Shown here in pieces: positions 42,468 through 45,921 of a stretch of 64,000 bases of DNA. Below the pieces are notes generated by a model. The model was not told the origin of the DNA. It did not search any database and saw nothing but the letters and a program-made list of their open reading frames with translations. The position numbers and the translations under genes are program-made. How positions within the stretch are numbered: position 1 is the first letter of the stretch; each line of letters opens with the position of its first letter. Origin of the DNA: Neptunicoccus sediminis (GTDB lineage Bacteria > Pseudomonadota > Alphaproteobacteria > Rhodobacterales > Rhodobacteraceae); NCBI RefSeq assembly GCF_001719615.1, contig NZ_MDVX01000001.1:248001-312000 (forward strand). Reading direction: 5' to 3'.

Positions 42468-43676
42468 TCAGGCGGTATCGGCCAGCCGTGCCGGGTCCAG
42501 CGCGGTGCCAGCCCGCTTGAATTCGCAAAACACCCGACCGTCGGCAATGGGCGAGACTGTCATGGTCAGTTCGGTGCCGCAGATATGGATGATCTGGGCC
42601 TGCCACTGGCTGCGCTCGCTGAAGTCGTGGACAAAATTGCGAAACTCGCCCCAGACGGGCGTGGGTTTGCAGTTCTTTTGAAACAACCGGCTGACATCTG
42701 TTACCGTTGGCGGTGCCACAGCCTTGGAAAGCGTGCAGCACCACAGGTCGTCAAACGCATCGTTCGCATAGGTCAGTTCCCCCGCCTGATTGAAGATTGC
42801 CACCGCGTCAGAAAGGCTCTCCAATGCGGCGTAAAGCTGGCAGATTTCTGCGCGATACCCCGTTTCCATCGCGGCAGAGCGTGAAATATCCTCAAACAAC
42901 AAGGCGGCCCCGCCGCGGGGGTGGGGCCGCCCTGTCACACGGTAGATGGCGCCGGAGGGTAATGCCCAGTCTACCTCGTATTTTCCGGTGAAGGCACCGC
43001 TTTCCAATTCTGCAAATTCCTGTCGCAGCGTGGTAAAATCGCGCGGTTCGGGGATAGAGCCGTTGTTGCGCAAACGGTCCAGAAACGCGCGCATGGTCGG
43101 TTTGCGCGCCAGCCAGTCCGGTGCCAGCCCCAAAAGCGAGGACAGGGCCGGGTTGAACAGGGTCAGATCCCGTTCACGGTCAAAAACAGCAATCCCGATC
43201 GGCAGATGGGCAAAAGTCGCAGTAAGGGTCTGGATAAAGCGTTTCAGCTCATTCTCTGTCTCTGCGAGAAGGGTTGCGTCCTTGGCGTAAAATACCGTTC
43301 CCGAACCGTTTTTCTGGGATTGGATCGAAAAGGTTTCAGGCTTGTCCGGTTGTACGGATTTTAGCCTGAACATTTCTTCCGCTCCGGAAACGGCCTTTGT
43401 GGTCAGTTTCTCAAAGGCGCTTATTCCGTCGAAATTTCCCTGCGGGTCCGCCAGAGTTTTTTGGCAGTATTCGTTCAGCCAAGCGACTTGTCCGCCGGAT
43501 TCAAGCCAGATCCCGAACGGGGCGGTATAGGCGATTTTACCAAGCGTCGGTCCCGCTGATACAAGGGTTCCGGCCCGCCGTGCGCGGCCCGTGGGCGTAG
43601 GGACAATCAAGGCGAGACAGATCCCCAGACCGAACAGTAACCCTACAAGCATGATCCCTGTGTGAAAATGCGCCAA
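42468..43676 (-). CDS. PAS-domain membrane protein without kinase domain (DivL-like)
   Basis: A 402-residue protein. An N-terminal membrane helix (about 8-26, MLVGLLFGLGICLALIV) is followed by about three PAS-like repeats: 45-130 (APFGIWLESGGQVAWLN), 150-265 (LPIGIAVFDRERDLTLFNPA, then LGLAPDWLARKPTMRAFLDR) and 280-385 (SDAVAIFNQAGELTYANDA). No DHp or ATPase domain follows. The PAS pattern matches the DivL sensor family; a kinase-lacking DivL acts in CtrA control in Rhodobacter capsulatus. Start TTG 43676 has AGGAAAGG upstream; ATG 43652 is an alternative. A CtrA-type site lies 55 bp upstream. Confidence 0.75.
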   Translation of the reverse strand: MAHFHTGIMLVGLLFGLGICLALIVPTPTGRARRAGTLVSAGPTLGKIAYTAPFGIWLESGGQVAWLNEYCQKTLADPQGNFDGISAFEKLTTKAVSGAEEMFRLKSVQPDKPETFSIQSQKNGSGTVFYAKDATLLAETENELKRFIQTLTATFAHLPIGIAVFDRERDLTLFNPALSSLLGLAPDWLARKPTMRAFLDRLRNNGSIPEPRDFTTLRQEFAELESGAFTGKYEVDWALPSGAIYRVTGRPHPRGGAALLFEDISRSAAMETGYRAEICQLYAALESLSDAVAIFNQAGELTYANDAFDDLWCCTLSKAVAPPTVTDVSRLFQKNCKPTPVWGEFRNFVHDFSERSQWQAQIIHICGTELTMTVSPIADGRVFCEFKRAGTALDPARLADTA

Positions 43677-43759: not shown

Positions 43760-45184
43760 CTAATGTGACGGATCAATCTGCCGGTTCGGTCCCACCACAG
43801 GGGCGCGGTCCACCTCCAGATCGGCGCGGTTCCAGCGCACGTTGACAATCGCTCCGGTCGCACCTTCCATAGCCTTCATTGCGCCGGCGTTCTGGCCCAT
43901 CGTGTAGCCGTCCACCGCCGCATTGGTAAAGGTTAACTCCGCGCCGGTCCGTTCCAGCATGGTCTTGGCGATAAACAGACCAAGCCCCATGCCCTCATAT
44001 TCCGGTCGAGAGGCAGCCTGACCGTCCGAAGACTTGCGTTTGCTCAGGAAAGGGTCTCCGATCCTGCCCAATAAATCCGGTGGATAGCCGCGACCGTCGT
44101 CGCCCACCATGACCCGGATGGAACTGTCGCTCCAACTTGTGTGGACCCAAACCGTGCTCTTGGCGAAATCCACCGCATTTTGCACAAGATTGCGAACACC
44201 GTGGATAAATTCAGGGTTGCGCTGGGCGTAGGGGATGTCTTCAAGGCGCGGTTGTTCGGCAGAGCCATTGGCGAGGAAGTGAATGATTTTCCCTCTGTTT
44301 TCATGGGGTTCTGCGGCTTCCTGCACGATCGAAGTCAAAGGTGCCGTCTTTAGCAGCAGGTCGTCCTTTCCCGCACGCCCCATATCCCGCAGAATATCGC
44401 GCAACCGTTCTGCCTGCGATGAAATAAGCTCTGCATCCTCGCGCAGTTCGGGTGAGTCTTCCAGTTCCTCTGCCAGTTCCGAGGCCACAAGTTTGATTGT
44501 GGCGAGCGGTGTGCCCATCTCATGGGCGGCGGCTGCCACCACACCGCCAAGCAGGGTTAGTTCATGTTCCCGAGCGAGCGCCATTTGCGTCGCCGCCAGC
44601 GCCTGACTCATGGTAAATGTTTCGCTCGTGACGCGCCGCGCATAGCCGCCCAGAAACAGAATGCCAATCACCAGCGCGGTCCAGTAGCCAGCCACATAAA
44701 GCTGCGGCAGGGCAACGATTTCTCCGGTTTGCAGGGTCAGGGGCACATAAAAGAACGCCAGCGCGCTGATCGCCAGCAGGGCGATACCGCTCACCAGAAA
44801 TGTGGCATTGACCCGCAGGGCGGTGGCGGAAATCGTGACGGGCGCAAGGATCAGCAGCGCAAAGGGATTGTTCAGCCCCCCGTTCAGGAACAGCAGGATC
44901 ACCAGTTGACCCAGATCGAACAGCAGCGTCAGGGTGGTTTCCTGCTGGGACAGGCGTTTGGTTTCGGGCAGCGTAAACGTGGCGGCAAGGTTAAAGATCA
45001 CCGAAGCACCAATGGCGACCACGTTCATTCCGATCAACAGATCAAGACCCAGCACATAATAAGCCACAGCGACGGCGGCGGTTTGCCCGAAAATCGCCAG
45101 CCAGCGCAGGTAAATCAGCGTCCGCATCCGGACCCATTCGCTGCGGGCGGAGGCGTAGAAATAGGGCTGGGTGGTCTCTGACAT
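43760..45184 (-). CDS. regB: Redox sensor histidine kinase RegB/PrrB/ActS, cysteine-free
   Basis: A 474-residue membrane kinase of the global redox system that signals to RegA. Six hydrophobic helices fill residues 25-185 and hold the quinone-sensing heptapeptide GGLNNPF (102-108). The H-box is AAAHEMGTPLATIKL with phospho-acceptor H221. G-boxes include VGDDGRGYPPD and GMGLGLFIAKTMLERTGAEL. The redox Cys of R. capsulatus RegB lies 40 residues after the His; here that position is Leu261 (SQAERLRDIL), and the whole protein has no Cys. ATG 45184 has an AGG site. Divergent from regA. Confidence 0.95.
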   Translation of the reverse strand: MSETTQPYFYASARSEWVRMRTLIYLRWLAIFGQTAAVAVAYYVLGLDLLIGMNVVAIGASVIFNLAATFTLPETKRLSQQETTLTLLFDLGQLVILLFLNGGLNNPFALLILAPVTISATALRVNATFLVSGIALLAISALAFFYVPLTLQTGEIVALPQLYVAGYWTALVIGILFLGGYARRVTSETFTMSQALAATQMALAREHELTLLGGVVAAAAHEMGTPLATIKLVASELAEELEDSPELREDAELISSQAERLRDILRDMGRAGKDDLLLKTAPLTSIVQEAAEPHENRGKIIHFLANGSAEQPRLEDIPYAQRNPEFIHGVRNLVQNAVDFAKSTVWVHTSWSDSSIRVMVGDDGRGYPPDLLGRIGDPFLSKRKSSDGQAASRPEYEGMGLGLFIAKTMLERTGAELTFTNAAVDGYTMGQNAGAMKAMEGATGAIVNVRWNRADLEVDRAPVVGPNRQIDPSH

Positions 45185-45309
45185 GGGTTTGCCTGACTTT
45201 GTGCGGGGTTGTGACGCGTTCACATCCAGTCGAATTTGGCACAGGGGTGCTTTGGGGTGCAATGACAGATGCGCGGGTTAAGCGGGGGAAACCACGCTAC
45301 AACACGGGT

Positions 45310-45338
45310 TTGACCTGACATTCGGGAAACTCTACTAA
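45310..45338 (+). promoter_or_regulatory. regA promoter
   Basis: TTGACC (45310-45315), 17 bp, TACTAA (45333-45338), then GAAGGGA before ATG 45367. This is one of the best sigma-70-like matches in the window, predicting a leader of about 20-25 nt. regB is transcribed the other way from the same 182-bp gap. Confidence 0.6.
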
Positions 45339-45366
45339 GGAATAACCACGATACGAAGGGACGGAT

Positions 45367-45921
45367 ATGTCGGAAACTGAGATGCGGGAAATCGGAGCGG
45401 ACAACTCGTTAATGATCCTCGACGACGATGAACCCTTTCGCCGCCGACTGGCACGGGCGATGGAAAAGCGGGGCTTCAACCCGACAGCACTGGATTCCGT
45501 GGCTGCGGGACGGGCTTTTTGCACGGCAACGCCCCCGGCTTATGCGGTGGTGGATTTGCGTCTCGAAGACGGTACTGGTCTTGATGTGGTCGAAGTGCTG
45601 CGCGCCCGCCGTGCGGATGCCAAGATCGTGGTCCTGACAGGTTATGGTGCGATTGCCACGGCGGTGGCTGCGGTAAAGATTGGCGCGACCGATTATCTGT
45701 CGAAACCCGCTGATGCCAAAGACGTGACCCATGCGCTGCTGGCTTTGCCCGGTGACAAGCCGCCGCCACCGGAGAATCCCATGTCTGCGGATCGTGTGCG
45801 GTGGGAACACATCCAACGGGTGTTTGAACTGTGCGACCGCAATGTATCGGAAACCGCTAGGCGGCTGAACATGCACCGCCGCACCTTGCAGCGTATTCTG
45901 GCAAAGCGCAGCCCCAAGTAG
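45367..45921 (+). CDS. regA: Response regulator RegA/PrrA/ActR
   Basis: A 184-residue global regulator of photosynthesis, respiration, CO2 and N2 fixation genes in Rhodobacterales. The receiver has acidic D19-D21 (LMILDDDEP), phospho-acceptor D63 (AYAVVDLRLEDGTGL) and T/K switch residues in VLTGYGAIATAVAAVKIGA. A proline linker (PPPPENP) joins the Fis-type helix-turn-helix NVSETARRLNMHRRTLQRIL, the invariant DNA-binding motif of the family. It is adjacent and divergent to regB, with no senC/prrC between them, unlike Rhodobacter. Confidence 0.97.
   Translation: MSETEMREIGADNSLMILDDDEPFRRRLARAMEKRGFNPTALDSVAAGRAFCTATPPAYAVVDLRLEDGTGLDVVEVLRARRADAKIVVLTGYGAIATAVAAVKIGATDYLSKPADAKDVTHALLALPGDKPPPPENPMSADRVRWEHIQRVFELCDRNVSETARRLNMHRRTLQRILAKRSPK

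Follow-up and report, generated by a model that had tools for sequence, protein, structure and literature searches.

A RegB sensor kinase with leucine in place of the redox-box cysteine in the Neptunicoccus/Amylibacter group

The regB locus and its product

We analysed a 64,000-nucleotide stretch of the Neptunicoccus sediminis genome, hereafter the window, which carries regB and regA as a divergent pair. The features at this locus are as follows.

42468..43676, minus strand: gene directly downstream of regB, encoding a 402-residue PAS-domain protein in which a kinase domain was not detected
43760..45184, minus strand: regB, encoding a 474-residue sensor histidine kinase without any Cys, ATG start
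44402..44404, minus strand: Leu261 (codon TTG), aligned with Cys265 of Rhodobacter capsulatus RegB, 40 residues after His221, in the context SQAERLRDILRDMGR
44516..44518, minus strand: Met223, adjoining the phospho-acceptor; Met in 29 of 30 sequences of the genus, Leu in 162 of 181 of the family
44522..44524, minus strand: phospho-acceptor His221, in the sequence AAHEMGTPLATI; the H-box is invariant
44615..44617, minus strand: Phe190, part of the helix that links TM6 with the kinase core; present in 30 of 30 sequences of the genus, rare elsewhere
44861..44881, minus strand: GGLNNPF (residues 102-108), the GGxxNPF quinone motif
45023..45025, minus strand: Asn54, part of TM helix 2; 154 of 182 RegB sequences have a Cys at this position, and the window lineage has lost it
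45185..45366, no strand: regB-regA intergenic region of 182 bp, lacking the senC gene that is located here in other members of the genus
45367..45921, plus strand: regA, encoding the cognate response regulator, divergent from regB at a distance of 182 bp (NCBIfam NF033791, 311.9 bits, cut-off 250)

The window protein scores 650.8 bits against the NCBIfam equivalog model for RegB, NF045988 (cut-off 570), and 545.3 bits against the NCBIfam RegB model NF033792 (cut-off 350), and it contains the Pfam domains HisKA and HATPase_c. Its GGLNNPF motif and its H, N, G1 and G2 boxes are all intact, just as a first-pass annotation of this DNA had read them; the kinase boxes are also kept in the other proteins that carry Leu at residue 261, and the GGxxNPF motif is intact in every complete RegB sequence of the GTDB genus. 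Judged by its sequence, this is the true RegB of the regB/regA two-component system, although, since the redox-box Cys is missing, we classify it as a RegB orthologue by descent rather than as a typical thiol-switched RegB. There is no second RegB in the genome of the window species, where the next kinase match reaches only 47 bits, and a Cys-bearing second copy acting as a substitute is thereby ruled out.

Translation of the reading frame yields no Cys in the 474 residues from the chosen ATG, in agreement with the first-pass annotation. An alternative TTG start at 45262, whose extension adds one Cys, had been raised there as an objection; this start is unlikely because in both sister species an in-frame stop lies six codons upstream of the same ATG, so that the upstream start is not conserved in them. 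Of the named relatives, Neptunicoccus (Amylibacter) cionae and a Rhodobacteraceae MAG are closest; their RegB proteins are 94-95% identical to that of the window, and both are Cys-free.

Distribution of the Cys-to-Leu change and of complete cysteine loss

We sampled RegB from the genus of the window species and from its family, order, class and phylum, together with named contigs and stretches taken by coordinate. Within the genus, regB matches were found in 30 of the 33 genomes, the remaining three being incomplete assemblies. In the resulting alignment of 403 distinct sequences, the column of residue 261 holds Leu in 30/30 distinct RegB of the GTDB genus (the Neptunicoccus/Amylibacter group) and Cys in 373/373 outside it (220/220 in the rest of the family, 123/123 in other Alphaproteobacteria and 30/30 among lower-scoring RegB/RoxS-like proteins), where both fractions count sequences and not independent events. 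Sequence and alignment thus agree with the earlier reading that Leu261 (TTG) stands at His221+40 in place of Cys265, and the alignment across relatives places no conserved Cys elsewhere in the window protein. The first-pass annotation had attributed the loss to "this lineage" and had considered that many RegB proteins might lack the residue: the loss is real, but it extends to the whole GTDB genus rather than to the window species alone, and 0 of the 373 sequences sampled outside the genus share it. In this broad RegB sample, the Leu261 state is therefore genus-wide and unique, as a variant within a known family. A literature search, with most subscription journals outside its reach, found no published account of a RegB lacking this Cys in the genus.

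An artefact of sequencing error, wrong start or misalignment has a negligible probability. The local alignment around residue 261 is free of gaps (QADRCRDIL versus QAERLRDIL), and simply counting 40 residues on from the His gives Leu in 30/30 within the genus and Cys in 304/360 outside, the non-Cys exceptions that were inspected having a different His-to-RC length and retaining the RC motif; an alignment shift is ruled out by this agreement. Likewise, the occurrence of Leu in 30 sequences from 30 genomes, a named isolate included, rules out sequencing error or chance, and the in-frame stop in both sisters speaks against a wrong start. In a gene tree of 111 sequences with the residue-261 column masked, the Cys/Leu trait needs one change; this gene tree was built rapidly, and the branch uniting the whole genus is without strong support in it. 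The Cys-to-Leu change was apparently one event at the base of the genus.

In a genome of another genus, regB appears to be divided into two overlapping pieces in different frames (locus L239, G045:C1:1156564-1157825), possibly through a frameshift. About 11 near-complete family genomes have no RegB match at 1e-60, and the RegB model was also negative in those retested; outright regB loss thus occurs elsewhere in the family.

The complete absence of Cys is, in the sequences compared, a second and narrower state than Leu261. Full-length Cys-free RegB was found in the set only in the window species, N. cionae and the Rhodobacteraceae MAG, a fourth Cys-free row being a fragment. The first-pass finding that RegB contains no Cys consequently holds for these three species but not for the genus at large, where most other members keep the Cys at position 54, as do most RegB outside the genus. 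The same three species, namely, the window species, N. cionae (G002) and G012, lack senC between regB and regA, where it is present in the other members of the genus in the usual, though not strictly defining, Rhodobacterales arrangement; the regB-regA gap is accordingly 182-183 bp in the three species versus 735-799 bp in the other members. We found no senC match within the window, and the SCO1/SenC proteins from the genomes of these three species are paralogues with about 43% identity or less to the linked SenC. Since the loss of senC is limited to three species, it is later than the Cys loss at residue 261, and is ruled out as the cause of the latter.

Kinase constraint and remaining redox inputs

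The dN/dS values of the window regB to the two sister species are 0.025 and 0.034; by this measure RegB is under purifying selection and is not decaying. A RegB that is decaying or has been repurposed, and is no longer a redox kinase, would fit the disappearance of the switch Cys and the absence of the linked senC from three species; however, decay is rejected by dN/dS, and the intact kinase boxes and quinone motif, the conserved synteny with regA and an equivalog score well above the cut-off also argue against this explanation, which we regard as very improbable.

An AlphaFold2 monomer model of the window RegB, of moderate confidence (mean pLDDT 76), has five helices between residues 20 and 144 and a sixth that starts at residue 161 and runs into the H-box, all predicted membrane helices, while the second DHp helix spans residues 245-277 and includes residue 261. 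Fold comparison matches the model to CpxA, ZraS and other HisKA kinases. By position, counted back from the hairpin turn, residues 223 and 261 would be at a similar height in the bundle. The position aligned with residue 261 in the second DHp helix is Leu in ZraS, CpxA and QseC, and in other histidine kinases of the same genome it is Leu in five of seven, with Met and Ile in the remaining two. The substitution would appear to have restored, in place of a Cys specific to RegB, the residue that HisKA kinases generally have, and since Leu is an ordinary HisKA residue at this place, the change should spare catalysis while removing the thiol. Given the strict conservation of Cys elsewhere, Leu could nevertheless alter more than oxidant sensing.

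That Leu is generic among HisKA proteins would also suit a change with no physiological effect, in which the thiol already mattered little to these marine bacteria, the membrane domain governs, and Leu drifted in. PrrB of Rhodobacter sphaeroides, which is reported to lack direct O2 sensing and to be inhibited by the cbb3 oxidase via the membrane domain (PMC8399564), offers a parallel. However, all 373 other sequences keep the Cys, many marine and non-phototrophic relatives among them, which argues that it is not generally dispensable, and two neighbouring positions changed together with residue 261; we therefore consider an effect-free replacement unlikely.

The partners of RegB are retained. 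The window RegA keeps Cys156 (ELCDR), as does every linked RegA of the genus, and fnrL is present in 20 of the 33 genomes of the genus, including that of the window, where it is adjoined by ccoN, encoding subunit I of the cbb3 oxidase, at G000:C31:691975-694407 outside the window. Both fnrL and ccoN are absent from several small-genome members of the genus. Because RegA Cys156, FnrL and the cbb3 oxidase remain, the first-pass statement that the quinone pool would be the sole redox input is an overstatement. Loss of the cbb3 oxidase or of FnrL is ruled out as the cause of the Cys loss, since the window genome and most members of the genus have both. Photosynthetic reaction-centre genes occur in three members (G008, G010 and G028; L477, L478) and not in the other genomes of the genus; since two of these three carriers have a sampled regB with Leu, loss of photosynthesis is ruled out as well.

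These partners raise the alternative that O2 sensing was moved rather than lost, its input now lying on RegA Cys156, FnrL or both, with RegB as a pure membrane sensor. In R. capsulatus, O2-dependent disulfide dimers through RegA Cys156 have been reported, and this residue is O2/Cu-responsive (PMC9147068), which together with its presence in all linked RegA of the genus and with the frequency of FnrL favours such a transfer. However, Cys156 is just as conserved alongside RegB proteins that have their own Cys, giving no sign of compensation, and several members of the genus that carry Leu at residue 261 have no FnrL. We thus hold a transfer of sensing to be rather unlikely, though less so than the absence of any effect.

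Interpretation and comparison with known systems

The reading we favour, with a probability of roughly 0.7, is that the window protein is a working RegB without the thiol switch, which would have been lost by one Cys-to-Leu change, and that it is kept by selection and controlled through its membrane domain. Papers citing the primary work state that Cys265 of R. capsulatus RegB is oxidised, that the kinase is inhibited by the resulting sulfenic acid or disulfide alike, and that ubiquinone is sensed via the membrane domain (PMC9147068, PMC5359404, PMC6530869). Since Cys265 oxidation and membrane-domain sensing are both described in the literature, a Leu261 RegB should still be controlled through the membrane but no longer directly through the thiol. 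On the favoured reading, a single change at the base of the genus would have removed the thiol redox switch, and selection would have retained the Leu261 protein as a working kinase; autophosphorylation should be intact, and the site that is oxidised in R. capsulatus gone. We infer that control would then run via the membrane domain, through the quinone site and possibly cbb3-oxidase activity, and that RegA Cys156 or FnrL would have to supply whatever direct O2 input the regulon receives. The broader proposal that one ancestral change in this genus turned RegBA into a pure membrane (quinone/oxidase) sensor, and that a subclade also lost every RegB Cys and the linked SenC, is more tentative, and we place it slightly below even odds.

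Two or three redox inputs have been described for RegB: it binds quinone, its Cys is oxidised and, in R. sphaeroides, it responds to the cbb3 oxidase. Which of these counts in cells has been difficult to disentangle. The genus-wide Cys-to-Leu change, set against strict Cys elsewhere, is a natural comparison that provides a clean pair for reciprocal swaps, and hence a natural test of the purpose of the RegB redox switch. An annotation rule by which all RegB proteins are thiol-controlled would fail in this genus.

Among known systems, R. capsulatus RegB and R. sphaeroides PrrB, to which the window RegB is orthologous by the equivalog model, share with it six N-terminal helices, the GGxxNPF motif, the H, N and G boxes and a divergent regA encoding Cys156. 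The window RegB differs from that of R. capsulatus in having Leu261 for Cys265, zero Cys and no linked senC. SpdS of Caulobacter crescentus, other alphaproteobacterial RegB and those of Burkholderia and Acidithiobacillus belong to the same family and have the same quinone motif and kinase core, but, unlike the window RegB, they still have a Cys in the redox box (C248 in SpdS; PMC6530869, PMC5506826, PMC8191878). ZraS, CpxA and QseC, on the other hand, share the Leu with the window RegB, but differ from it in having other input domains, no GGxxNPF motif and no RegA partner.
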